From: Devosia lucknowensis
Lineage (GTDB): Bacteria; Pseudomonadota; Alphaproteobacteria; Rhizobiales; Devosiaceae
Reading direction: 5' to 3'
NCBI RefSeq assembly: GCF_900177655.1
Contig: NZ_FXWK01000001.1
Location: 558,001 to 622,000, forward strand
Length of the DNA: 64,000 nt
Positions 6,688 through 34,283 of the stretch are shown piece by piece (the first letter of the stretch is position 1; each line of letters opens with the position of its first letter). The translations under genes were made by a program, and so were the position numbers. Below the pieces are notes generated by a model. The model was given only the letters and a program-made list of their open reading frames with translations, did not search any database and was not told the DNA's origin.

Positions 6688-9600
6688 CTACTCCGCCGCA
6701 TCCCTGCGGCTAACGACCGTGACGCCGTTGGCTTCCTTCTCCTGCAAGCCGACGTCCTTCGAGACGATGTAGCGCTTGGAGCTGTCGGCATCGTCGGGAA
6801 CTTCCACGGCCATGCCGTCGAAGCCGGCCGGCGCTGCCACCGGCTTGCGACCGAAGAGCCCGCCAATCCAGCCGCCCAGCGCCGCGAAGAGCCCGCCGAC
6901 CCACTTGATCTGGTTCCACATCACGCTCGGCGCGGTGATCATGACCGGCACCATGATGAGTGTGAGGGCGGTGGAGAAGAACAGGCCCGAGACCAGCGCT
7001 GCCGAGAGGTGGATGAACCACGATCCGGCAAGGCCGCCGATGACGATTTCACGGCGGATGAAGTCAAACTCCACATTCGCCCACATCGGGATAACGCCCA
7101 GCGCCGTGAGGAACGCGGTCAGCAACACCGGACGCACGCGCTGGCTCACGGTCAGCAGCATGGCCTTCACGGCTTCCACGTTCTGGTGACGATGGTAGTC
7201 GTTATAGGTGTCGATCAGGACGATGCCGTTCTTCACCACGATACCCGCCAGCGCCACAATGCCGAGGCCGGTCATGATCGCCGAGAAGGTCATCCCGGTG
7301 ATCAGCATGCCCAAAAGCACGCCGGCCACCGACATCACCACGGTCGTGAGCGTCACCATCACCTGGTAGAAGCTGTTGTACTCGAGCAGCAGCACGAAGA
7401 AGATGATGGCCATGGCCATGATCAGCGCCTGGCCGATGAACGCATTGGCGTCGCCCATCTGCTCTTCGGCACCGCCGAATGCCACCGAAACGGTGTCGGG
7501 GAAGTTCTGCTCGCCGATCCAGGTCTGCAGTTCCGCTACCTTGTCGGCGGCATAGACGCCTTCGGGCAGGTTGGTGAGACCGGCCGCCACAGCCATGGTG
7601 TAGACCTGGTTGCGGCGCTGGATGTTGGCCACTTTCGGCACGGCAGTGCGCTCGATGAAGTTGGAGACCGGAACCAGGCCTTGGCTGGTGGCGATGCGCA
7701 TGCTGTCGAGCGCGTCGAAGCTGCGCTCTTCCTTGGGCAGGCGAACGCGGATGTCGAGTTCGTCGCCGGTCTGCGCATCGCGGTAGGTGCCCAGCTTCAC
7801 GCCCGAGGTGACGAGCTGGACATAAGGCGCCAGCTCGCGCACGCCGATGCCATATTTGCCCGCTTCGGCGCGATCGATGGTGATCTGCCAGTCGATACCG
7901 GGCGAGGGGCGACCGTCTTCGATGTCGACGGCTTCAGGCCAGGTCGCGATATGGTTGCGGATCGCGGTCACCACAGGCACGAGATCGTCGTAATTGGTGC
8001 TGTCGACGCGCAGGTTGATGTCCTTGCCCGCCGGCGGACCGTTTTCGGCCGCCAGCACCTGGATATCGAGACCGGCGAAGCCGGCGACACGCTCGCGGAT
8101 TTCGGCAAAGATCTGCGACGCCGGAACGCGGTGGTTCCAGTTGGTGAGCTGCAGCTGGAAGTTGCCGATCGTGTCCGGTGGCGTGGTCGAGAACGATCCG
8201 GTCGAACCGAACTGCATGATCACGTCCTGGACGCCCTGGACCTGGATCAGCTCGTTCTCGATCTCCCTGAGCATGTCACGGATTTCTTCGGGCGAGTAAT
8301 TGCCCCGTCCCACGACGGCGACGGTGGCGAATTCCGGTTCGGACGCCGGGAAGGCCTCCGAGCCCGTCGGGTTCATTGCATAGGCCACGAAGATGGTGAC
8401 GATGGCGCCGAAACCGACGGCCAGCGTCGGCAGCGGCCAGTGCAGCAACTTGTCCATCAGCCGCACATAAAGCCCGGTCAGTCCGCCGACCTTCTTCACG
8501 TCGAACTTGTCGGGATACATGACGATGTCAGCCTTGGCCTTCTCCTTCTCGTCCACATGCGTGGACGCGATGATGGAGCCGATGACCGGCATGAAGATCA
8601 GGGCCGAGATGAACGAGGCGACCATGACGATGATCACGATCATCGGCAGATAGCTCATGAACTTGCCGATGATGCCCGGCCAGAACAGCAATGGGATGAA
8701 GGCGCCGAGTGTTGTCGCAGTGGCGCCGACCACGGGCACGAACATCTTGCGCATGGCCATGATGAAGGCTTCCTTTTTCGGAATGCCCTCCATCAGCTTT
8801 CGCTCGGCATACTCGACCACCACGACAGGGTCGTCCACGAGCACGCCCACCGCGATCACGAGGCCGAACATCACCATCATGTTGATGGTCATGCCCAGGC
8901 CCTGCGCGACGAGGAAGGCCATCATGAACGAGAGCGGGATCGACATGCCGATCATGATCGCGGGACGAACGCCGAGCGTCGCCACGCAGGTGATCAGCAC
9001 CAGTGCCACGGCGGTCAGCACCGCAGCTTCCAGCGAGCGGAACAGCGCGGTCGTGGTTTCGGCCTGATCGAGGAAGAACGAATAGGTGACGCCCGAAGGC
9101 CAGTCCTTCGCCGTCTCCTCGGTCACCTGCCGAACTTTGTCCGACACATCGATGATGTTGGTGCCGAGCTTCTTGGCGACGCCGAGGATCAGGGCAGGGG
9201 AGCCATTGACCTGGGTATATTCGGTCGCATCGGCAAGCGTGCGGGTGATGGTCGCGACATCGCCGAAGGTGACGACCGTATTGCCGTCGGTCTTGAGCGG
9301 CAGGCTGTAGACGTCTTCCGCGGTGGTGATGAGGCCGGGCACCTCGATGTTGAACGAGCCCTGTCCGGTATTGAGCGTGCCGCCCGGCACGACCATGTTG
9401 TTGCGCGCAAGCGCGTCGAACAGCTGGTTGGCGGTGAGGCCGTAGGCTTCGAGGCGCAGAAGATCGACCCGAACCTCGAGCTGTTCATCGCGCGAGCCGG
9501 AGAGCGTGGCCTCGCGGACTTCGGGAATGCCCTCGATGGCGTCCTGCAGCAACTCGGCGCGGCGCACGAGTTCCTTCTCCGGGGCAGAGCCGTAGACGGC

Positions 9601-25116: not shown

Positions 25117-25143
25117 ACCAAGGTCTGCCGCGTCTGGTTCGTC
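25117..25143 (+). promoter_or_regulatory. Putative ECF promoter, site A
   Basis: ACCAAGGT (25117-25124), 15 bases, then CGTC (25140-25143), ending 26 bases before the start of the exported protein gene at 25170. Its extended form ACCAAGGTCTG...CGTCCAATCT recurs at site B (33685). Part of the shared motif set of the ECF sigma island. Confidence 0.75.
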
Positions 25144-25169
25144 CAATCTCCAGACAATGGAGATTTGCG

Positions 25170-26114
25170 ATGAAACTTTTGGTGACCCTGGCACTGGCCG
25201 CATCGACCACCGGCGCAGCGCTGGCTCAGGATATTGAAGCTGGTTCGGAGCGTGTGCTCGTCGATGCCGATTTCGGTCTCACCCTTGAAACGCCCGAAGG
25301 TTTCGACGCCCAACTGTTAGGGCAGATGCCCGAGGGCCACGTTCTGATCAAGGTGAGTGCCGACGATCCGGACTTACCGCCGCTCGATGGTGCCGATCAT
25401 CTCTGCGACCTCACCTTCAACTACGATCCAAACTTCGGGCAGGGCGATCAGCAATGGGTGAATAGCCTCGCTGACGGAACCGGGTTCTACGAACGCATGG
25501 CTGAGGAAACGGCGGTTCCGGGCACGGTGGAAAGCGGCGAGCATTTCACCCATCGCGGCTCCTCGTCCCACATCTTCTTCGGCCGTCACGATCTGGGCGG
25601 CGCGTTTGCGGTCGCGGCTATTCCCACCACCCAGGGTTACGCCCTGCTCACCTGCGCCACCAGCGCAGCCGAGGTCGATTGGGACGCCATTTCGCCCTTG
25701 ATCGACGCCATAACCGTTCCGGGTCAGCCACGCGATCATCTCGCAGGCACAGGCACGTGCGAGGCGGAGCTGGATGTCGCGGAAGACGATCTCGACACCT
25801 TCCTTGGCGGCAGCGCAGACCGGACGCTCGTCGCTGCGCTGGACGCGGAACGTGGTCGGATCGCGGATGCGTGCGGCGGTGACGAGGCCGACGCCGTCAT
25901 GGATGCTGCCCTCGAGCAGCTGGGCGCCACCGAAACTTACCGCGCCATGCGTTACGACGCGCTGGCCCGGATCGGCTCCGACCTTCTCACCCCCGAGCAG
26001 CATGAGGCTCTCGACGATGGCCGCCAGCAAGTGGTCGCTGCCAGCGACGAGCCAACGGGCGAGCGCTACCTCGACTACATGCATTTCACCGTCGGATTGC
26101 GCGGCGGAGTTTGA
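25170..26114 (+). CDS. Exported protein of unknown function
   Basis: I do not recognise this 314-residue protein. It begins with a standard signal peptide (MKLLVTLALAASTTGAALAQ, cleavage before Asp21), so it is periplasmic or secreted. The mature chain is acidic. Residues ~60-180 alternate short beta-like stretches (HVLIKVSADDPDLPP, AFAVAAIPTTQGYALLTC). The C-terminal ~120 residues are mostly helical and acidic (AELDVAEDDLDTFLGG, DEADAVMDAALEQLG). A few Cys (DHLCDLTF, LLTCAT, GTCEAELD, DACGG) could form disulfides. It is preceded by site A of the ECF motif and followed by a bidirectional hairpin. It is the first gene of the ECF-linked island, so a role in envelope stress is an inference from context only. 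Confidence 0.8.
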   Translation: MKLLVTLALAASTTGAALAQDIEAGSERVLVDADFGLTLETPEGFDAQLLGQMPEGHVLIKVSADDPDLPPLDGADHLCDLTFNYDPNFGQGDQQWVNSLADGTGFYERMAEETAVPGTVESGEHFTHRGSSSHIFFGRHDLGGAFAVAAIPTTQGYALLTCATSAAEVDWDAISPLIDAITVPGQPRDHLAGTGTCEAELDVAEDDLDTFLGGSADRTLVAALDAERGRIADACGGDEADAVMDAALEQLGATETYRAMRYDALARIGSDLLTPEQHEALDDGRQQVVAASDEPTGERYLDYMHFTVGLRGGV

Positions 26115-26124
26115 TGCAGGACCA

Positions 26125-26152
26125 GCAGGCCGGATGCAGAAGTCCGGCCTGC
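26125..26152. terminator. Bidirectional hairpin between converging genes
   Basis: GCAGGCCGGA and TCCGGCCTGC form a perfect 10-bp stem with an 8-base loop. It sits between the converging genes ending at 26114 and 26166 and should stop both transcripts. Confidence 0.75.
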
Positions 26153-26165
26153 GCGCTTCTTCACT

Positions 26166-26762
26166 TTACCAGATCTCGCGCTCGATCAGCACAACGGGGT
26201 TGTCCTCGCGGTCGAAGGTGGCGTCCACGGCGAAGTAGGTGATCTCGAACTTGCCATTCTTGAATCCCCACCGCGTCTCCGCATAGGCATCGTCGAGCCC
26301 CCGCATTTTGTTGCGCTCGGTCATTGTGCGGCTTGATGGGTCGTATTGCGGGTTCACGACCTCGCGCAAATCAGGAGTGTCGATGATGGTGATGTCGTCG
26401 ACGGGCGCGCCTTCGCCTTCTCCCTGGTAGCTGATGTCAACCTGCGGAGAAGGAAAGAGGATCTCCGAGACCGTCCCATGCTGATCCGAGAGGAGATAGA
26501 CCGACGTCTGATTGTAGGCGCCGATCTGGCATGGGAATTCCACGATCAGCGCTTGCCGCGCTGCCGTGTCCTCACCGATCTGGAGCTCAAAACTGGCTGG
26601 CTCCAATTGCGAGGCCTCCGCCGGAACGCACACCTCCGGGCGGTTTGCCTGATGATGGGAGATGGCCTTCTCGATTGCAGAGGTCTTCCACTCGCCCTCC
26701 TGGGCGGTGCTCGGCAGGCTCACCAGCACGAGGCTGGCAGCAAGGACGAAATGTATGCGCAT
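26166..26762 (-). CDS. Exported protein of unknown function
   Basis: I do not recognise this 198-residue protein. A signal peptide opens it (MRIHFVLAASLVLVSLPSTA, then QEGEWK). I start at the ATG at 26762 because it gives a proper signal peptide; the longer frame would run into the promoter. The mature part is probably mostly beta (FELQIGEDTAARQALIVEFPC, SVYLLSDQHGTVSEILFPSP) and ends in RWGFKNGKFEITYFAVDATFD. That ending resembles the common DUF1176-like or lysozyme-inhibitor-like periplasmic folds, in which a short chain describes a charged residue surface, but the match is not strong enough to name. It is driven by site D of the ECF motif and is divergent from the gene at 26904. Confidence 0.78.
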   Translation of the reverse strand: MRIHFVLAASLVLVSLPSTAQEGEWKTSAIEKAISHHQANRPEVCVPAEASQLEPASFELQIGEDTAARQALIVEFPCQIGAYNQTSVYLLSDQHGTVSEILFPSPQVDISYQGEGEGAPVDDITIIDTPDLREVVNPQYDPSSRTMTERNKMRGLDDAYAETRWGFKNGKFEITYFAVDATFDREDNPVVLIEREIW

Positions 26763-26789
26763 CACGGTCTCCATCAGGCTCGACCATAT

Positions 26790-26816
26790 GACGACCCGGG
26801 AGCGCCGCACCTTGGT
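26790..26816 (-). promoter_or_regulatory. Putative ECF promoter, site D
   Basis: On the minus strand ACCAAGGT (26816-26809) is followed after 15 bases by CGTC (26793-26790), ending 27 bases before the ATG at 26762. It faces site C, whose -35 starts 19 bases away, so the two form a compact divergent promoter. Confidence 0.75.
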
Positions 26817-26835
26817 TTGTCAAAATTGCCTTGGG

Positions 26836-26862
26836 ACCAAGGTTCGGCTGCGTTCGCACGTC
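26836..26862 (+). promoter_or_regulatory. Putative ECF promoter, site C
   Basis: ACCAAGGT (26836-26843), 15 bases, then CGTC (26859-26862), 41 bases before the start codon at 26904. It is divergent from site D. Confidence 0.75.
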
Positions 26863-26903
26863 TGATGGACAAGACCAGATGATCCCTGTCGAAAGGTGCA
26901 GCC

Positions 26904-27488
26904 ATGTTCCGCCATTCAGTCGCCGCCGCCGCCATTCTGGCGGTCTTATCCACCGCCGCCACCGCCCAGGAGCCGACCGACTTCCTAGGCGTGGCCGGGC
27001 CGATTTCACTCGGCGACACGCAATACGTGCTTGCGTGGTCGTCCAACCCCCAACCGGGCTACATCAAGCAGGAATACATCCCCGCGGGCGACACGCTCGA
27101 AACCTACAACAGCATGGTGATGGTCGAGTTCGTCGCCACCGATGCGCCGATCGCCGATGTGGTGGCCGGGCAGGCGGCCGCAATCGACCAGCGCAAGGCG
27201 ACGGACCCCATCGCCAACATGGCCATGTTCAGCAATCCCGATACGGGCGAAGTGCTGCTGGATTTTCTCCGCTCCGCCAAGGATGAGGCCGGTGAATACA
27301 TCATCGAATGGAACGGGTATCGCTATGCCGAGGCCGAGTTCGATGGCGAGGAAGGGGTGCTCCTCTTCGCGGTCAGCGACCGCAGCTATGGCAACGCCGC
27401 CGCCGAACCGTTTCTGCGTGGCCTCGCGGACTTCAAGGCAGCTCGGCTCGAGGCCCTGACATCGGCCGCTCTGCCGGCGCTCGACTGA
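26904..27488 (+). CDS. Exported protein of unknown function
   Basis: I do not recognise this 194-residue protein. It begins with a signal peptide (MFRHSVAAAAILAVLSTAAT, cleavage after AQ). The mature part is acidic and appears alpha/beta, with SLGDTQYVLAWSSNPQPGY near residue 35 and a stretch in the middle rich in short side chains (ATDAPIADVVAGQAAAIDQR). An ending rich in helix follows (FLRGLADFKAARLEALT). There are no Cys in the mature chain. A ribosome site GAAAGG lies ten bases upstream of the ATG. It is preceded by site C of the ECF motif. Its stop codon lies in a 20-base perfect palindrome shared with the converging gene. Function unknown; membership of the ECF regulon is inferred. Confidence 0.8.
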   Translation: MFRHSVAAAAILAVLSTAATAQEPTDFLGVAGPISLGDTQYVLAWSSNPQPGYIKQEYIPAGDTLETYNSMVMVEFVATDAPIADVVAGQAAAIDQRKATDPIANMAMFSNPDTGEVLLDFLRSAKDEAGEYIIEWNGYRYAEAEFDGEEGVLLFAVSDRSYGNAAAEPFLRGLADFKAARLEALTSAALPALD

Positions 27489-27502
27489 TCGCGATCAGTC
27501 GT
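27483..27502. repeat. Perfect 20-base palindrome over two converging stop codons
   Basis: CGACTGATCGCGATCAGTCG is its own reverse complement. The plus-strand gene stops at 27486-27488 (TGA) and the minus-strand gene stops at 27497-27495 (TGA), both inside it. It has no loop as DNA, so as RNA it would fold only with a strained turn. It may act as a meeting point for the two converging transcripts. Confidence 0.7.
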
Positions 27503-29108
27503 CCAGCCAGTACGCGGTGCCCTCGATCAGCACCGTGTCTGGCTGGGTATCGTCCGCTGACGCCGGAAGCGCGAAAAACCGTCGCTCGCTGGTTCCGTCC
27601 ACGTCGATGATGAGCGCGAAGTCCTCGATCCGGTAGCGCGCTTCCGTCGCGGGATCCTCGGAGCCGCTCACGATGATGTAGCTCGTCCCCACATTGCCCG
27701 CGACAAAGCCGCTGCGGCTGTAGGTGAGGGCGCCATCACGCGAAAACGCATACCGCCTGTCCTGTCGCGACCCGCCCATCCCGATCTGGAGATAGTCATA
27801 GGCTCCGTCCAGCGTCGCGTGGGTAAACGGCACGAGGCGCTGCGCCCCTTCGACCAGCGTTTCCGTACCCGCCTGCCAGCCGCCGCTCATGGTCAGGCGC
27901 ACGCTGTCGCCGTCCGCCTGCCAGGTGAACCAGCGTCCCGGCTCACGCTGCCGCGACAGCGCGACGTCGAGGTCGGTGAACGGAAAGCTCCACTCGTGCA
28001 GGTACGCGCTGCCATCGTCGAGCAACACGTAGATGTCCTCCTGCCGGTCCACATAGCCATTGCCGAAGCCATCGAGCCGATTGTCGAACCGGGCGTCGTA
28101 GATCACGCGATCCACGTCATCGAGGGCGATCCCGGCATTGGGACCGGCAAAGGCCTCGTCAAACTCGAGCGGCCGGATCATGAGACCGGCGCTGTCCTCT
28201 TCCTCCACCATCGGCCGCGCGGTTTCCGCGACCGTAAAGAGGCTGCAGCGATCGAGCCGGACGACACCGCCCTCCATGCCGTCGCTGACGCTGCGCGACG
28301 TCCCGACAACCACCATGTCTCGGCCGATCGCGCTTTCCATGCGGGCCTCGTGCGCCGCCTCGCTGAAGGAGCTGCAGCGCACGGCAAAGCTCGATTGCAT
28401 GTCCTCGCGCCATTCGCGCAGTTCGTCCTCGCCGGTGACGCGGCCATAAAGCACCTGCACGCCATCGGCTTCGAGCCAGTCCTCGGCATGCGCCTCGCGC
28501 GCCGCCCGCAAACCGCGCAGCTCCCGCGCCCCCGCCTTGCTGCCGATCTCGGCCATCTTGGCCTCGATCCGCGCCGAAAGCGCCGCCAGCGGCAGGATCT
28601 GCGTCTCCTCCACCGTCCGTGTCGCCGGCACGATATCAGGCACGTCAGGCACGGCGATGTCGAGCGCCCGCGTCAGCGACATGAGCCGCCTCACGCTCGA
28701 TTTCACGTCGAACTGGTCCGCCGCCAGCACCTCCGCAAACTTCCCGCAGGTCTGCGGCGCGGCATCGAGTTCTCTCGCGATCTCTGTGGCAAGCGCCGAC
28801 CGCTGCGGCCCGATCTGTGCCTCCAGTTCGGGAATGCGCGCACCAATGCCCGTCATCACCCGGGAGTAATCGCCGAAGTCGTTGTCGTGCCGCCAGGCCG
28901 CGACGAGGTCGCGTCGCGCCTGCACGCCCTCCGGGTCGCGTTCGGCGCAGGCATCGAGGTAAAGCGCTGCCGCTTCGAACGCACCCACGGTCTGCCCGAT
29001 GCGCTGGCTCAGTTCCTCGACCTCGTCAGCCGTGACGGTCATGGGAAGGCCGGCGGTGACCATCACCGCCAGCACCACCCCTCTCAGGCCATCCGTTCCC
29101 GCGGACAT
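27495..29108 (-). CDS. Large exported protein of unknown function
   Basis: I do not recognise this 537-residue protein. A signal-like segment lies at the start (GVVLAVMVTAGLPMTVTA, then DEVEELSQ). Residues ~35-200 look helical, with regularly spaced acidic and basic residues and few Cys. The second half looks beta-rich, with repeated strands ending in aromatic residues (YVLLDDGSAYLHEWSFPF, RYAFSRDGALTYSRSGF). I take the ATG at 29108 as start; it lies seven bases after the stop codon of the gene upstream, so the two form one operon behind site F. The C-terminal part ends at a palindrome shared with the converging gene. A two-domain periplasmic protein is likely. No enzymatic motif is visible. 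Confidence 0.75.
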   Translation of the reverse strand: MSAGTDGLRGVVLAVMVTAGLPMTVTADEVEELSQRIGQTVGAFEAAALYLDACAERDPEGVQARRDLVAAWRHDNDFGDYSRVMTGIGARIPELEAQIGPQRSALATEIARELDAAPQTCGKFAEVLAADQFDVKSSVRRLMSLTRALDIAVPDVPDIVPATRTVEETQILPLAALSARIEAKMAEIGSKAGARELRGLRAAREAHAEDWLEADGVQVLYGRVTGEDELREWREDMQSSFAVRCSSFSEAAHEARMESAIGRDMVVVGTSRSVSDGMEGGVVRLDRCSLFTVAETARPMVEEEDSAGLMIRPLEFDEAFAGPNAGIALDDVDRVIYDARFDNRLDGFGNGYVDRQEDIYVLLDDGSAYLHEWSFPFTDLDVALSRQREPGRWFTWQADGDSVRLTMSGGWQAGTETLVEGAQRLVPFTHATLDGAYDYLQIGMGGSRQDRRYAFSRDGALTYSRSGFVAGNVGTSYIIVSGSEDPATEARYRIEDFALIIDVDGTSERRFFALPASADDTQPDTVLIEGTAYWLDD

Positions 29109-29115
29109 CCGGGCC

Positions 29116-30231
29116 TCACTCGCTGCCGATCTGCAGCACACTCGCCTCGCGTCGCATATGGGCGTTCAGCACCGCCGCATACGCCGGGTTCTGGACCGTC
29201 TCGCTTTCGTCGATCAGCACCGTCACCACCGCGGCGCAGAGGCCATCGACGCCCTCGGCCGTGCCGGTCTCGATTTCGCCCTGGGCCGTGTCGGGCGCCA
29301 TGTCGCTCCAGCGGCCGGCAATGGCATCCGCTGCAGCCTGCGCGACCGTGCAATCGGGGTAGGCGAGGGCGATGGCGGCCCCCATCTTGTCTGTCTGGAT
29401 ATCGGCGACGATGCCGCCCATATAGGCCGGAATGCCCTTGCCGAGCGCTTCCATCTGCGCCTCGATCTTCGCCCGGGTTTCCGCGATATCGGCGGTCGGC
29501 GACAGCACCGCGGCCGGATCGAGGCCCGCAAGCCCGAATAGCGGCGAGATCACCACCGCCTGCACCACATGGGCCTCCCCAGCCGACTGCTCCAGCCCGG
29601 CCAGCGCCGTCGCGATGATCGGGTTCTGTCCGAGGCGCGGCTGATCGCTCGCCGCCGTCATTGCTGCCTGCGGCGTCTGCGCCTGCACCACATTGGTGCC
29701 CGTTGCCGCAGCGAACTGCGCCGCGCCGACCCGGGTGCGCCATGGATTGGCCGGGTCCCTGTCCTGCGGGTTGAACTGCATCGGCTCGCCATTGCCGACC
29801 ACGCCAGGCATGCCGGCACTTTCGAAGCCGATGGTCTCCAGCGTGCTGACCAGTTCGGTCGCCGACGCTTCGTCGACCAGTCCCCAGAATGTGTGCGTAT
29901 TGGGTGGAACGCCGAAGCTGGTGAAATAGCGCACCTTGTCCCGTGTCGTGCCCGCCTTCGTTTCCCACTCGGATTGCTCGGAGGATGCCAGGCTCTGCAG
30001 CGGCGTGAAATCGGCTGCCGCAAACAGCCGGACGAAGGAATTGGCGGGTCCGCTTTCACCCTGTGCCGACATCACGTCAACATCCGCGAAATAGGCCACG
30101 TCGCCTTTCTCCTGCACGAAGACGCTTTCGGGCAGGTGATCGAGGCCCTCACGCAACGCATCGACATTGGCGGCCAGGGCCGGGGCGGATGCGGTCAGCA
30201 TCAGGGCGATGGAGATAACGCTGCGGCGCAT
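29116..30231 (-). CDS. Exported protein of unknown function
   Basis: I do not recognise this 371-residue protein. It has a signal peptide (MRRSVISIALMLTASAPALA, then ANVDALREG). The mature part opens with LDHLPESVFVQEKGDVAYFAD and has an Ala-rich middle (VVQAQTPQAAMTAASDQP), so two domains joined by a linker seem likely. Residues 250-300 (TRAKIEAQMEALGKGIPAYMGGIVADI) are probably helical. One Cys pair (PDCTVAQ and GLCAAVV) could form a disulfide. The ATG at 30231 has AGAGGA upstream and gives a good signal peptide, so I prefer it to the longer open frame. Site F of the ECF motif precedes it. It is the first gene of a two-gene operon with the 537-residue protein. Confidence 0.78.
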   Translation of the reverse strand: MRRSVISIALMLTASAPALAANVDALREGLDHLPESVFVQEKGDVAYFADVDVMSAQGESGPANSFVRLFAAADFTPLQSLASSEQSEWETKAGTTRDKVRYFTSFGVPPNTHTFWGLVDEASATELVSTLETIGFESAGMPGVVGNGEPMQFNPQDRDPANPWRTRVGAAQFAAATGTNVVQAQTPQAAMTAASDQPRLGQNPIIATALAGLEQSAGEAHVVQAVVISPLFGLAGLDPAAVLSPTADIAETRAKIEAQMEALGKGIPAYMGGIVADIQTDKMGAAIALAYPDCTVAQAAADAIAGRWSDMAPDTAQGEIETGTAEGVDGLCAAVVTVLIDESETVQNPAYAAVLNAHMRREASVLQIGSE

Positions 30232-30262
30232 GGGCAATCCTCTTCTGTGTCGTTTGCTTTGT

Positions 30263-30289
30263 GACGTCCTGCGAATGCATGACCTTGGT
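30263..30289 (-). promoter_or_regulatory. Putative ECF promoter, site F
   Basis: On the minus strand ACCAAGGT (30289-30282) is followed after 15 bases by CGTC (30266-30263), ending 31 bases before the ATG at 30231. It is divergent from site E. Confidence 0.75.
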
Positions 30290-30329
30290 GCGATTGGAGA
30301 ACTTTTTCTCGGCAGATTTGGTCTCGTGG

Positions 30330-30356
30330 GCCAAGCTTCCACCTGCCTGCGGCGTC
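30330..30356 (+). promoter_or_regulatory. Putative ECF promoter, site E
   Basis: GCCAAGCT (30330-30337), 15 bases, then CGTC (30353-30356), 29 bases before the GTG start at 30386. Two -35 positions differ from the consensus, but spacing is exact and the -10 CGTCATATGG equals that of site D. The same transcript could continue through the sigma factor gene. Confidence 0.65.
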
Positions 30357-30385
30357 ATATGGATCAAACGGAAAGGATCACCGCC

Positions 30386-30910
30386 GTGAAAAGATTGATG
30401 ATGTCCCTTTTGATCGTGACCGCCATGGCCTCCGGAACGCCTGCAATGGACAAGCCGAACCTCGAGGCCATGAGCAATAGCGAAATCCGGGAACAGGCGA
30501 GCTCGCTCCATCCTGCGGCGCTCTACATCCTCTCGGCGCGCCTTCTGGCCGAGGGCAGGGGGCAGGAGGCGGCCAACTGGATGTATGCGGGCCAGTTGCG
30601 CTACCGCTTTCTCATTGAAGCCGGTGGTGACGCTGCGCGCGACGAGAACGTGCTTTTCAGTGCCCTGACGGAGCAGGTCGGTCGACCCGTCAACGAATAC
30701 ATTGCCGGCAATGTCGACGAATGGCTTGCGGCCATGCAGTGGGCGCTCGATTGGGACGAGGCCAATGCCAACGGCCTGACCTCCAAGACCCAACATGCCG
30801 CCGTCCTCAAGGATGTTCGCGACGGTCTCGAAAGGCTGATGGCCGATGTCGAAGCCAATCGCGCCGAAATCCCGGCCCAGCGCGAAGCCAATGGTCTCGA
30901 AAACCGCTGA
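30386..30910 (+). CDS. Exported helical protein of unknown function, GTG start
   Basis: I do not recognise this 174-residue protein. I start it at the GTG at 30386 because GAAAGGA lies eight bases upstream and the result is a good signal peptide (MKRLMMSLLIVTAMASGTPA). The longer open frame is only read-through. The mature chain looks wholly helical (SSLHPAALYILSARLLAEGR, EAANWMYAGQLRYRFLIEAGG). It contains short A/G-x-W-M-Y repeats like a tetratricopeptide or Sel1-type solenoid, so a protein-binding scaffold is possible. Site E of the ECF motif is upstream. The small secreted protein gene follows after ten bases, and the sigma gene comes next on the same strand. Confidence 0.77.
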   Translation: MKRLMMSLLIVTAMASGTPAMDKPNLEAMSNSEIREQASSLHPAALYILSARLLAEGRGQEAANWMYAGQLRYRFLIEAGGDAARDENVLFSALTEQVGRPVNEYIAGNVDEWLAAMQWALDWDEANANGLTSKTQHAAVLKDVRDGLERLMADVEANRAEIPAQREANGLENR

Positions 30911-30920
30911 GGAGAGAACC

Positions 30921-31256
30921 ATGCGTGCTTTCGTTCTCGCGTCGCTGGCCGTCATTGCTTCTGTCGCACCGGCGATCGCCGATGGTGCCACGGAGGAAAC
31001 TGTCTTCCTGGTCGGTCGCACCAATATCTTCTGCGTCAAGGCGCCGTGTCCTTGGCGCGGCATCGCTCCTGCCGGCGGCGCGGCGGGTCCTCACGCGCTC
31101 ATCTGGTCCGGTGACGCTCTTCCCGAGGTCGACGGAGACCCTGCCGACGTCGCCAGCATTTCCCAGGCGTGGAACAACGGCGACTGTCTGGTGGTCAGGG
31201 GACAGTTTACTGCGGAGGTCCTGACCGTCGATGCCGTTGTTGGCCCTTGCCCCTGA
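30921..31256 (+). CDS. Small exported Cys-containing protein of unknown function
   Basis: I do not recognise this 111-residue protein. It has a signal peptide (MRAFVLASLAVIASVAPAIA, then DGATEE) and a ribosome site GGAGAG eight bases upstream. The mature part of ~90 residues has four Cys, including FCVKAPCPWRG near residue 40 and an ending VVGPCP, which would suit two disulfides. A central acidic piece (LPEVDGDPADVASISQ) precedes NGDCLVVRGQF. The pattern reminds me of small secreted beta folds but I cannot name a family. It lies ten bases after the helical protein gene in the site E operon, just upstream of the ECF sigma factor. Confidence 0.77.
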   Translation: MRAFVLASLAVIASVAPAIADGATEETVFLVGRTNIFCVKAPCPWRGIAPAGGAAGPHALIWSGDALPEVDGDPADVASISQAWNNGDCLVVRGQFTAEVLTVDAVVGPCP

Positions 31257-31381
31257 AGTCTATCGACGGTGTTTCGATGAATAGCGGGGCAGTTGCGCGG
31301 CATCTTTCCTCTAAGAGGTTCGCGCCAAACAAGGAAATCTCATTTTCGCCACAACCATTTTGCTTTTCTGGCATTATTGCC

Positions 31382-31960
31382 ATGGGCAGGCGGGGAGTTG
31401 ATGGCGCAGTGCGATTTGTGGAAGGGACGATTTCCGAGCCGTCTGACGCGACGGCCCAGCTCATAAGGCTGGCCAAAAGTGGCGACGCCCGGGCCTTCGA
31501 ACGCCTGATCTCCGAACATTATCTCTTCATCTACAAGACCGCGTTCCGCTGGCTCGGACACAAGAGCGACGCCGAAGATGTCACGCAGTCGGTATGTATG
31601 CGTCTTGCCGACGCGATTTCCGGCTTTGACGGACGGTCCAAGTTCACCAGCTGGCTCTACACAATCACTCTCAATACCGTTCGGGACCTTCAACGCAGCC
31701 ACAAGCGGCGCGGCCGGCAGATCGATGCCGTCGCCGCAGTCGCACGAGAAGAAATCGCGCCCAGTCAGGAAGACCAACTGCGCGTCAATGATATCTGGCG
31801 TATAGTGCGCCAATTGCCGGACAAGCAGCGCGATGCCGTGCTGCTGGTCTTCGGCGAACAACTCTCTCAGGCGGAAGCCGCCGCCATCATGGGATGCAAG
31901 GAAGTGACCGTGTCCTGGCACATCCACAATGCGCGCAAGTCGCTCAAGGACCTGCTATGA
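31382..31960 (+). CDS. ECF-family RNA polymerase sigma factor
   Basis: This is an extracytoplasmic-function sigma factor of about 192 residues. Region 2 covers ~40-105 (FERLISEHYLFIYKTAFRWLG, then DAEDVTQSVCMRLADAI, and FTSWLYTITLNTVRDL, which binds the -10). Region 4 covers ~138-188 (LPDKQRDAVLLVFGEQLSQA, then GCKEVTVSWHIHNARKSL, the -35-binding HTH). No region 3 is present, as usual for ECFs. I use the ATG at 31382; a GTG at 31409 behind GGGGAG is a real alternative. The next gene, a single-pass membrane protein, overlaps it by four bases (ATGA), the usual arrangement of a sigma/anti-sigma pair. Eight motif sites with ECF-like geometry surround it, all within 9 kb. Confidence 0.9.
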   Translation: MGRRGVDGAVRFVEGTISEPSDATAQLIRLAKSGDARAFERLISEHYLFIYKTAFRWLGHKSDAEDVTQSVCMRLADAISGFDGRSKFTSWLYTITLNTVRDLQRSHKRRGRQIDAVAAVAREEIAPSQEDQLRVNDIWRIVRQLPDKQRDAVLLVFGEQLSQAEAAAIMGCKEVTVSWHIHNARKSLKDLL

Positions 31961-32709
31961 GCCAGGATCGCGACCCGTTCGAACTGCTGCCGCGCTTCGT
32001 TGATCCCGAGCCAGATCCCGTTGTGATGAACGCTACCATCGCCCAGAGCCGGGAGGCTTTCCTGCGCCGCGCTGGCAAGGCCGGTCCCGTCGCATCGCCC
32101 GGTTTGGGCACGTGGTTCGGCAAGTCTCTCAACTGGATAATTCCGGCGACAGCAGGCGCGGTTGCCCTCGTCGTTGCCATTCTTGTTGTGCCCGGTCTCA
32201 TGCCCGACGCACCGGCGCCGAACCGCGAAACGGACCTGGTCGCCGACCGGCCGACGCCCATGCCGTCGGCCGCGCCCTCCACATCCCTGTCGCGCAGCCC
32301 TGAGGCCGCGTCCGACGCCGTGTCCGGGACGTCGTCCATGGGTGTACGGCCGCTTCCGGGCCAGCCTGCGCCAGCGCCACAAGCCGTCGATACGATATTC
32401 GAAGGCGATGGCGTGCGGGTCGGGGTTCTCACCACCCCGTCCCAGGTCGAGCTTTATCTCCCCGATCTTTCTGGCCGGACGGTCATCGACACGCAGGCTG
32501 TTTTCGCCGGCGAGGATCTCGAAATTCTTGAAGCCGCCCTCGTCCCGGCGGGTAACCTCGTCGCCGTCCGCTTCCGGGTCAACGACGAACGCTTCTGGCG
32601 CATCTACGCCCAGGCCAGCGGCACCTACACGCGCGATGCAGACCTTTCGGCGACAGTTTCTGATGCGTCGGATGTGGCAGAGGTCGAACGGCGCCTCGCC
32701 GCACCGTAA
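31957..32709 (+). CDS. Single-pass membrane protein, putative anti-sigma factor
   Basis: This is a 250-residue protein with a cytoplasmic head (~1-58), one transmembrane helix (~59-82, LNWIIPATAGAVALVVAILV), a Pro/Ser-rich stretch (~83-140) and a C-terminal periplasmic domain (~140-250) with DTIFEGDGVRVGVLTTPSQV and FWRIYAQASGTY. It overlaps the ECF sigma gene by four bases. Short head, one helix and a periplasmic sensor part are what one expects of an ECF anti-sigma factor that is released by a signal in the periplasm. I see no zinc-binding HxxxCxxC motif, so it is not of the ZAS type. The anti-sigma role is inferred from gene order and topology. I do not recognise the C-terminal domain. Confidence 0.75.
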   Translation: MSQDRDPFELLPRFVDPEPDPVVMNATIAQSREAFLRRAGKAGPVASPGLGTWFGKSLNWIIPATAGAVALVVAILVVPGLMPDAPAPNRETDLVADRPTPMPSAAPSTSLSRSPEAASDAVSGTSSMGVRPLPGQPAPAPQAVDTIFEGDGVRVGVLTTPSQVELYLPDLSGRTVIDTQAVFAGEDLEILEAALVPAGNLVAVRFRVNDERFWRIYAQASGTYTRDADLSATVSDASDVAEVERRLAAP

Positions 32710-32711
32710 GC

Positions 32712-33176
32712 CTATCGCTGTTGCGCCCGATAACGCTCCAGCAGATCCGACAGCGGGCTATGCAGCAGATCGCCATTCAGCCGTGGTGGCGGGCCATAGC
32801 TGAATGCGAAATTGTACGTTCCGCTCCGCTCGATGATGAGGTCGACAATGGTCCACGGGCCCTCGCCCGGAAGTGTCATGTCGTCCCGCAGCGCGAGCAG
32901 CTTCGCCTTGGTCTCCATGCTGAGGCGGAACCCCAGCGCCTCGAGATCGGCATCCCCTCGATGGGCGATGACCTTGGCCTGCGTGCTTGAGCGCATGCCT
33001 TCCTCGGCAAGGATCTCGTGATTGACGCCGATCATCACCCAGTCCCGGTCATCCCATTCGCCGTCCTGCAGATCGACGATGTCGGCTACGACGTGGCGCA
33101 CGGCGTCCTCCTGGCGCGACGCGATATCGGGCAGGGGAGGTTTTTTGCCAAAGCGGTCGATCAGGCCCTTGAACAT
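32712..33176 (-). CDS. YezG/DUF600-like (immunity-type) protein
   Basis: This is a 154-residue soluble protein with no signal peptide. The ending, YNFAFSYGPPPRLNGDLLHS followed by PLSDLLERYRA, resembles the DUF600/YezG immunity family, whose members neutralise secreted polymorphic toxins. Before it come DGEWDDRDWVMIGVNHEIL and a helical middle region, LEALGFRLSMETKAKLLAL. I chose the ATG at 33176 (MFKGLIDRFGKK) since further upstream the frame crosses the promoter. Site G of the ECF motif precedes it. It converges on the anti-sigma gene with only two bases between stop codons. No toxin gene is next to it. The family match is by eye, so it could instead be a general stress protein of similar fold. 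Confidence 0.65.
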   Translation of the reverse strand: MFKGLIDRFGKKPPLPDIASRQEDAVRHVVADIVDLQDGEWDDRDWVMIGVNHEILAEEGMRSSTQAKVIAHRGDADLEALGFRLSMETKAKLLALRDDMTLPGEGPWTIVDLIIERSGTYNFAFSYGPPPRLNGDLLHSPLSDLLERYRAQQR

Positions 33177-33213
33177 GGGTGTGGTCCTTGGTTCGAAACA
33201 GTATCGTCTATAG

Positions 33214-33240
33214 GACGTCCTTGATCCGACCGACCTTGGC
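33214..33240 (-). promoter_or_regulatory. Putative ECF promoter, site G
   Basis: On the minus strand GCCAAGGT (33240-33233) is followed after 15 bases by CGTC (33217-33214), ending 37 bases before the ATG at 33176. It is divergent from the weak site H. Confidence 0.7.
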
Positions 33241-33270
33241 GCCTGCTTCTGTCTGCGCCATGCGACGCCC

Positions 33271-33297
33271 GCAAAGCTTTGCTTCATGTCAGGCGTC
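33271..33297 (+). promoter_or_regulatory. Putative ECF promoter, site H (weak)
   Basis: GCAAAGCT (33271-33278) is 15 bases from CGTC (33294-33297), 38 bases before the ATG at 33336. Only five of eight -35 bases match the consensus, but spacing and position fit the set. Confidence 0.45.
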
Positions 33298-33335
33298 TAA
33301 TGTTCGAGCTTCGGAAATGAAGGAAGGACTGGATC

Positions 33336-33656
33336 ATGTGGCGCGGGATCATTGTGCATGGGGTGCCCCTGGTCATTGCTGTGGGCGCGGCTCTGCTGCT
33401 GCTGCCGTGGATCATGGGAGCCTCCGCCATCGAGGGTGACTCAGGCTCCCGAGGCTACAGCGTCGGCATGGCGGCGCTTTTCCTTTACCCGGCCAGTTAT
33501 CAGGTGCTGATCATCGGCTGGCTGGTGTGCCGCTGGCAGCGGTGGTCGCTACAAGCCGTCTTCATCCAGCTCATCTGGTGCTGTCTCGTCCTCTTTGCCG
33601 CCGCCATGGCCTATGCTCTGGTTTCGCTTCAGGAATACCTTCTGCTTCAGTCATAA
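33336..33656 (+). CDS. Small inner-membrane protein, three predicted helices
   Basis: I do not recognise this 106-residue protein. Three hydrophobic segments are visible at about 8-29 (HGVPLVIAVGAALLLLPWIM), 45-66 (VGMAALFLYPASYQVLIIGW) and 75-97 (VFIQLIWCCLVLFAAAMAYA), joined by short charged loops. A ribosome site GGAAGGA lies nine bases before the ATG. It is preceded by the weak site H and followed by site B and the exported protein at 33741. Its likely home is the inner membrane. Nothing indicates transport or enzymatic motifs, and its role is unknown. Confidence 0.75.
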   Translation: MWRGIIVHGVPLVIAVGAALLLLPWIMGASAIEGDSGSRGYSVGMAALFLYPASYQVLIIGWLVCRWQRWSLQAVFIQLIWCCLVLFAAAMAYALVSLQEYLLLQS

Positions 33657-33684
33657 GCGAATTCCACAAATCGGGTGCTTGCGC

Positions 33685-33711
33685 ACCAAGGTCTGTCCCG
33701 TTGCCGCCGTC
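33685..33711 (+). promoter_or_regulatory. Putative ECF promoter, site B
   Basis: ACCAAGGT (33685-33692), 15 bases, then CGTC (33708-33711), 29 bases before the ATG at 33741. It shares its extended form with site A (ACCAAGGTCTG and CGTCCAATCT). Confidence 0.75.
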
Positions 33712-33740
33712 CAATCTGCACAACATGGAAAGGACGGACC

Positions 33741-34283
33741 ATGCGCCTGAAAATTGCTGCTCTGATCGCCCTCCTCCTCGCCGCGCCGGCTCACGCCCAG
33801 GTCGAGCAGGATTTCGCATTGGCCAACAAGGTTTTCGGCCAGCTTTCGGCCACGGCGGTTACCGACGGTATCGATGGCGAATGGCTGCCGCTAACCGTAT
33901 TGGCCAACCTGCGCGGCGGCGATCCTGACCCGGGGCTGATTGACAGCCTGCTCGAGCGCATATGTGGCAACGATCCCATTCGTGGCGCTGTCTTCACCGC
34001 CATCGACGACACAAGCTTTGAAATGCTGGGCGCCAACACGCGAGGAGAAATGCGCTACCGCTTCGATTGGATCGACGGTGCGGAGTTCTACCGAAGCTTT
34101 GATCCGGCGCAGCTCTTCAGCGTGCTCAAGTTCGACGCGATCGAGGGGGAGAGCGGCGTCAAGATGCGCGCTGACGCCATGGACGCATATTCCGGCACCG
34201 TCCACTTCTACCGTGTGTCGCCGGACGTGCTGACCATGGTGAGCAAGCACGGTGCCGAGGTCTATGGCCGCTGCCCGAACTGA
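33741..34283 (+). CDS. Exported protein of unknown function
   Basis: I do not recognise this 180-residue protein. A short signal peptide opens it (MRLKIAALIALLLAAPAHAQ). The mature chain has a helical first part (DFALANKVFGQLSATAV) and then strands with a repeated aromatic pattern (SFEMLGANTRGEMRYRFDWI, GTVHFYRVSPDVLTMV). Two Cys (ERICGNDP and YGRCPN) may form a disulfide linking the N-terminal region to the very end of the protein. AAAGGA lies nine bases upstream of the ATG. The gene is monocistronic behind ECF site B and is followed by a strong cruciform hairpin. It is the last member of the ECF-linked island. Confidence 0.78.
   Translation: MRLKIAALIALLLAAPAHAQVEQDFALANKVFGQLSATAVTDGIDGEWLPLTVLANLRGGDPDPGLIDSLLERICGNDPIRGAVFTAIDDTSFEMLGANTRGEMRYRFDWIDGAEFYRSFDPAQLFSVLKFDAIEGESGVKMRADAMDAYSGTVHFYRVSPDVLTMVSKHGAEVYGRCPN

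Follow-up and report, generated by a model that had tools for sequence, protein, structure and literature searches.

A candidate extracytoplasmic function sigma factor regulon of mostly exported proteins in Devosia lucknowensis

We describe an island of about 9 kb in Devosia lucknowensis in which eight sites share a -35 element of the form ACCAAGGT or close to it, a spacer of 15 bases and a CGTC -10 element. The island lies within a stretch of 64,000 nucleotides, hereafter the window (positions 558,001 to 622,000 of contig NZ_FXWK01000001.1, C1:558001-622000 of genome G000, which comprises 3.71 Mb in two contigs). These sites are very probably promoters of the extracytoplasmic function (ECF) type, read by a sigma factor whose gene lies within the island; this sigma factor would regulate its own expression, pair with a membrane protein and govern an accessory group of proteins, most of them exported. 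An initial annotation of the window had proposed both the promoters and their link to this sigma factor, and the proposal is strengthened by the recurrence of motif, spacing and target families with the sigma factor in other Devosia genomes and in Agrobacterium albertimagni. Comparison of these sequences supports the motif, its geometry, its association with the sigma factor and the gene order.

Promoter-like sites and the island sigma factor

A pattern search of both strands for RCCAAGST-N15-CGTC returned exactly seven matches in the window, while 100 dinucleotide shuffles of the window gave a mean of 0.01 matches and a maximum of one. These are the seven sites (A to G) that the initial annotation had called clear, exact in coordinate and strand, with no eighth exact match in the window; its weak site H differs from the refined motif by a single mismatch. 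The constant spacer of 15 nt reported there was found at all eight sites, and the -10 element indeed precedes a start codon by 26 to 41 nt (A 26, D 27, C 41, F 31, E 29, G 37, H 38 and B 29), where the distance for site D uses a start codon picked for agreement with relatives and that for site E a GTG start. All eight sites also carry an A as the third base after CGTC, a feature missing from the initial annotation. Divergent pairs are formed by D and C, F and E, and G and H (Table 1).

Across the whole genome the same pattern matches 19 times, seven times in the island and 12 times elsewhere, compared with three matches of a reversed-pattern control. The extended form RCCAAGST-N15-CGTCNNAW has eight exact matches in the genome, seven of them in the island. 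The objection that the motif might be equally frequent within genes therefore fails, as 11 intragenic matches in 3.7 Mb stand against seven in front of genes in 9 kb.

The genes for the ECF sigma factor and its putative anti-sigma partner do lie in the middle of the island, with sigma-70 regions 2 and 4 found in the first protein (PF04542 at residues 43-111 and PF08281 at 138-189, of 193 residues) and the overlapping downstream gene conserved, as a homologue after the sigma gene, in 15 aligned loci. No further domain scored above cut-off in the sigma factor beyond the sigma-70 region 2/4 families, and the NCBIfam equivalogs among its best 25 of 104 were all far under cut-off. The partner comprises some 55-60 residues, one hydrophobic helix starting at about residue 60 and then some 170 residues, a layout which suggests a short cytoplasmic N-terminus and a presumably periplasmic C-terminal part; the helix is found in 14 of the 15 homologues. 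The gene run with the sigma gene has a site at its head in the window and in loci L050, L061, L062 and L063. In the window, this run starts at site E and proceeds through the genes for 174 and 111 amino acids to the sigma factor and its partner, and the run behind site F consists of the 371- and 537-amino-acid genes; the initial annotation lacked both the continuation of the former into the sigma gene pair and the second member of the latter.

We propose that the island sigma factor would recognise the eight promoters through the -35 ACCAAGGT, the 15-base spacer and a -10 of the form CGTCnnAT, and that the membrane partner would hold it until a putative envelope signal sets it free. Together with RNA polymerase, the freed sigma factor would then transcribe all operons of the island plus at least two genes elsewhere, and read-through from site E into the sigma and partner genes would provide positive feedback. 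The products would be mostly exported proteins, joined by a single membrane protein and by a cytoplasmic one of immunity-like predicted fold, and their purpose is most likely envelope protection, possibly against the toxins of other bacteria.

Table 1. Promoter-like sites and genes of the island, in window coordinates
Feature	Positions	Strand	Sequence or product
Site A	25117..25147	+	ACCAAGGT-N15-CGTCCAAT; start codon 26 nt downstream
Target of A	25170..26114	+	314-aa exported protein (signal peptide by eye); no Pfam/NCBIfam family
Target of D	26166..26762	-	198-aa exported protein (predicted); DUF1176-like, slightly under Pfam cut-off
Site D	26786..26816	-	ACCAAGGT-N15-CGTCATAT
Site C	26836..26866	+	ACCAAGGT-N15-CGTCTGAT
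Target of C	26904..27488	+	194-aa exported protein (predicted), FAM2 (family alignment)
Second gene behind F	27495..29108	-	537-aa exported protein (predicted), FAM4 (family alignment); 7-nt gap to the 371-aa gene
Target of F	29116..30231	-	371-aa exported protein (predicted), FAM3
Site F	30259..30289	-	ACCAAGGT-N15-CGTCACAA
Site E	30330..30360	+	GCCAAGCT-N15-CGTCATAT; GTG start 29 nt downstream; heads the run ending in sigma and partner
Target of E	30386..30910	+	174-aa exported protein (predicted), FAM8; GTG start
Second gene behind E	30921..31256	+	111-aa exported protein (predicted); FAM7 by position and by eye
ECF sigma factor	31382..31960	+	sigma-70 regions 2 and 4; TIGR02937 2.3e-29, PF04542 3.2e-17, PF08281 7e-13 (scanned from 31379)
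Putative anti-sigma factor	31957..32709	+	4-nt overlap with sigma stop; no family above cut-off
Target of G	32712..33176	-	154-aa protein without signal peptide, FAM5; predicted EsaG/YezG (DUF600) fold
Site G	33210..33240	-	GCCAAGGT-N15-CGTCCTAT
Site H (weak)	33271..33301	+	GCAAAGCT-N15-CGTCTAAT; one mismatch
Target of H	33336..33656	+	106-aa membrane protein, FAM6
Site B	33685..33715	+	ACCAAGGT-N15-CGTCCAAT
Target of B	33741..34283	+	180-aa exported protein (predicted), FAM10

Recurrence of the motif with the sigma factor

The island sigma factor is found as nine copies (77-100% identical) in eight of 75 Devosia genomes, the source genome included, and a homologue with 75% identity is encoded by Agrobacterium albertimagni. 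Sites of the strict form lie near the sigma gene in G029 (11 sites, locus L061), G016 (six, L063), D. equisanguinis (five) and D. crocina (four). A count of gapped words in the loci of eight relatives, made with the window left out and with no motif given in advance, ranked ACCAAG-N17-CGTC first, with occurrences in 33 of 185 upstream regions; in 175 coding stretches the top word occurred only five times. The coding stretches alone served as control, as the reversed control was not clean (top word 24 times) because divergent gene pairs bring mirrored sites into it.

In nine loci, 48 sites were compared with the positions of start codons, sites less than 400 nt from a locus end being omitted. 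At 41 of them, CGTC is followed after 22-47 nt by a start codon in the same direction that has a Shine-Dalgarno-like sequence, compared with 184 of 2846 CGTC occurrences and 1101 of 20000 random positions. Six of the seven failing sites have a gene 26-130 nt downstream, and the seventh (L064:17494) looks intragenic. A logo of 42 sites displays conservation at bases on which no selection had been made, with A in 98% and T in 83% of sites after CGTCnn, and a purine in 97% nine bases after CGTC, followed by an A-rich leader; this is the pattern expected of a promoter with its start site. The logo left aside 16 of 58 sites on the verdict of a crude gene caller that misplaced several starts, and nine of those 16 do precede genes; the start-codon comparison was made independently of this caller.

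Homologous target families are preceded by a site in other Devosia, Agrobacterium albertimagni, Ectorhizobium, Azospirillum and Paracoccus. The last three belong to the weaker relatives (61-66%), and in them genes of shared families follow CCAAG-N17-CGTC with bases 7 and 8 looser; of the other weaker relatives, Aureimonas has two sites of this form before other genes, and in Pelagibacterium a single one lies 112 nt ahead of a gene. Among the individual targets, the family behind site A has a site in L061 (ACCAAGGT) and L051 (ACCAAGAA), and the same holds for the family behind site D (L061, GCCAAGGT; L051, ACCAAGAT), whose L061 member passes the Pfam cut-off for DUF1176. Homologues of the site H target have matching sites farther upstream, at 67 nt in L050 (ACCAAGGT) and 130 nt in L051 (ACCAAGCT).

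FAM5, the family behind site G, occurs in nine of the 75 Devosia genomes, namely all eight sigma carriers and G096, a coverage with a chance of 5e-10 if kinship is ignored; in the carrier G080 it is represented only by a diverged copy (E 7e-31) on a different contig. The G096 assembly is 74% complete and its contig C31 holds four sites in less than 5 kb around FAM5 and FAM2 genes; it is therefore probably a carrier whose sigma gene went unassembled. FAM2 is more widely spread (33 of 75 genomes). FAM3 was found in one of 384 other genomes in a class-level scan, which was a sample with at most five candidates scored per genome. In this distant case (G246), no sigma factor of the island family was found in the 17 kb around the gene, and GCCAAGGG-N15-CGTCTGAT is matched once, some 9 kb away.

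The regulon appears somewhat larger than the initial annotation stated, with two likely targets elsewhere in the genome. One is the only extra-island match of the basic pattern that precedes a real gene, which has relatives in the islands of other species: this site (C1:1643364-1643390, minus strand) lies 34 nt before the GTG start of a gene for a 160-amino-acid membrane protein with homologues inside the islands of G029, G065 and G074 (46-51% identity). The family is present in six of the 75 Devosia genomes, five sigma carriers and G010, and its copies in G000, G065, G074 and G010 are preceded by a site. The other remote site (C1:1058252, ACCAAGAT-N15-CGTCTCAT) stands 31 nt before a gene for a 196-amino-acid exported protein, whose family is restricted to two of the 75 genomes, both sigma carriers; the G034 copy is preceded by GCCAAGGT-N15-CGTCTCAT. 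A protein resembling the DUF1176-like target of site D (E 4e-16) is encoded 2.2 kb from the end of this remote target gene (L131:6128-6940, minus strand, C1:1061127-1061939), and among the motif matches listed none precedes its gene. It should also be noted that at G016:C1:2324001 and G080:C17:164487 roughly 1.5 kb separates a ACCAAGGT site from an additional, diverged copy of FAM5 that is encoded on the other strand, and further remote targets near these positions are possible.

Eight genes flanking the island had no match in the loci of 15 relatives, which reach at most 10 kb to each side of the sigma gene, suggesting that the island may be inserted at different places in different relatives. 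Its G+C content (63.4%) is like that of its surroundings (64.4 and 63.1%).

Candidate readers of the sites

Most Devosia genomes encode a second sigma factor, 50-60% identical to that of the island, which forms a sister clade. Within 320 nt upstream of the sister genes, nC[C/A]AAGGA-N15-CGTCnnA was found in 52 of 58 rows, some loci being counted twice and some rows representing further genera of the order. All 52 of these sites have A at base 8 although T was allowed, and 95% of island-type sites have T. In the source genome the sister gene (C1:2301381-2301905, L065) has CCAAAGGA-N15-CGTCATAG upstream. The two clades differ at nearly fixed residues of region 4, such as V175/A and N183/E, and we infer that these differences may be linked to base 8. 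The sole sister partner scanned, encoded after the sister sigma gene of G010 (L069), is a 693-amino-acid VWA/YfbK protein (PF12034, 8e-71); a literature search on YfbK with ECF sigma factors found no paper. The idea that the sister promoter has changed only where the island sigma factor is present, as insulation, found no support in a count by eye: seven of the eight carriers have CCAAAGGA, but so do about half of the non-carriers, and carrier G029 has CCCAAGGA. G016 holds four sigma factors of this group, two of the island clade (L063 and L064, 82 and 78%) and two others (L066 and L067, 57 and 54%), of which L066 is accompanied by its own homologous set of exported proteins with looser CCAAG-N17-CGTC sites.

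Given such similarity, the sites could be promoters and yet be read partly or wholly by the sister sigma factor or by another one. Their spacing and -10 are identical to those of the sister promoters and the -35 is very similar. FAM2 displays both types of site: T stands at base 8 of the site before its best copy in each of the eight carriers and in G096, and among 21 non-carrier loci three (G010, G015 and G091) have an A-type site, that of G015 without the A after CGTCnn, and 18 have none. In G010, T-type and A-type sites occur with the sister sigma factor alone. Against this stands the observation that base-8 T and the clustering of sites track the island sigma factor; the split of T-type and A-type FAM2 sites is 9/0 in carriers (G096 counted with them) and 0/3 in non-carriers (Fisher 0.0045), and among the matches listed, which extend as far as genome G087, only one pair within 20 kb comes from a genome without the island sigma factor (G030; by eye). 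We therefore consider another reader rather unlikely. As G010 has both types of site without the island sigma factor, the sister sigma factor may nevertheless use ACCAAGGT-type sites too, and the two regulons may overlap. The sites in question belong to a two-gene remnant (L144, G010:C1:3040000-3058000, positions 8200-9420, minus strand) of a membrane protein gene with a ACCAAGGT site and a FAM2 gene with a CCAAAGGA site, which could either stand alone as an orphan mini-regulon or be controlled by the sister sigma factor.

The repeated element might instead be the binding site of a transcription factor with CGTC in its second half, as ACCAAGGT is itself a dyad, ACC-AA-GGT, with ACC and GGT as inverted repeat. 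However, 41 of the 48 sites are oriented toward a nearby start; the sister form lacks such a dyad, in CCCAAGGA as in CCAAAGGA, and still retains N15-CGTCnnA before the sister genes; and the conserved A/T after CGTCnn and the purine at a plausible start position suit a promoter. We regard this explanation as quite improbable. Several intergenic copies within one region would also be expected of remnants of a mobile repeat (resembling repetitive extragenic palindromic, REP, elements or miniature inverted-repeat transposable elements, MITEs) seeded between genes, but only about 14 bases are common to the copies, the spacer and the upstream flank are unrelated, and site orientation is fixed relative to the genes, which leaves this origin with hardly any credence.

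Several observations weigh against our preferred reading, in which the island sigma factor reads the sites as promoters. Earlier hallmarks of ECF systems, according to a 2021 review (PMC8103513), are a -35 with AAC, a -10 with CGT, a co-transcribed anti-sigma factor and positive autoregulation. CGT is present in the CGTC of all eight sites, but the -35 lacks the AAC, a hallmark no longer defining, and has CCAAGG, with AAG instead. The partner matched no known anti-sigma family, its homologue in Azospirillum (L059) has no membrane helix, and in the window the sigma gene starts 125 nt beyond the last exported-protein gene. A 61%-identical relative in Pseudogemmobacter (L060) has no site of the motif form, and the second sigma copy of G016 (L064) has a single convincing site. 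Eleven of the 12 extra-island matches lie inside coding-looking open frames (10 sense, one antisense; inspected by eye) and are chance-like, the 160-amino-acid family has no site directly in front of its copies in G029 and G032, and G010, which lacks the island sigma factor, has retained a membrane-protein gene preceded by a perfect ACCAAGGT site.

Gene products and relation to known systems

The initial annotation had described the targets as mostly exported unknown proteins, which holds for most of them; the product behind site G looks cytoplasmic and that behind site H is a membrane protein. The structure model of FAM3 is mixed alpha/beta, with no confident fold match. FAM5, the site G product, was assigned the predicted fold of EsaG/YezG (DUF600, PF04634) on a clear rank and Z, with Foldseek TM-scores that are only moderate (0.42-0.48). 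The PF04634 profile did not match the window protein at E<=1, and the sole member with a hit is that of L059 (E 0.28, 11.8 bits against a cut-off of 21.7). This modelled fold is a hint of defence against bacterial toxins, and suggests contact with competing bacteria as the condition under which the regulon would act. No toxin family was recognised among the scanned island proteins, although toxins of a novel type could have escaped such a scan. Unlike EsaG/YezG-like immunity proteins, FAM5 is below the Pfam cut-off in sequence and has no recognised toxin gene adjoining it. We speculate, as a conjecture that is itself doubtful, that the island could be an inducible, horizontally moving defence unit against competitor toxins, in which the ECF sigma factor, with a promoter code of its own, would respond to envelope damage by inducing exported protective proteins together with the EsaG-fold immunity protein, a single -35 base separating, or partly sharing, the promoters of the two sigma clades within one cell.

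The regulon appears to be new, as far as the literature search goes, and its kind known. The listings of this search, of at most 20 papers and with the bulk of subscription papers and the 2021 classification of ECF groups outside their scope, contained nothing on an ECF regulon in Devosia or on an ECF motif with CCAAGG; CCAAGG came up in one paper alone (PMC7509140), as part of a primer. According to the 2021 review, 102 of 157 ECF groups are without mechanistic or functional insight (PMC8103513); the Devosia regulon, being compact and having a clear promoter code, could serve as a test case. The base-8 difference between the promoters of the sister sigma factors would likewise provide a natural experiment on DNA recognition by sigma region 4, and some ten families of proteins without known function become approachable as one response.

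Overall, the system resembles pairs of ECF sigma factor and membrane anti-sigma factor such as RpoE1, E3, E4 and E6 of Sinorhizobium meliloti (ECF26), with regions 2 and 4 and a partner gene directly downstream. Several of the ECF26 promoters listed in PMC6180224 have CGTC in the -10, in some followed by nnA. In the same source the ECF26 -35 is GGAATA-like, in contrast to CCAAGG in the Devosia island. The sister clade differs from the island sigma factor in having A and not T at base 8, a VWA/YfbK protein as its scanned partner and a distribution over most Devosia genomes. Compared with the ECF26 systems, the Devosia island is further distinguished by a partner without a recognised anti-sigma domain and by its roughly ten, mostly exported, protein families gathered in an accessory island.

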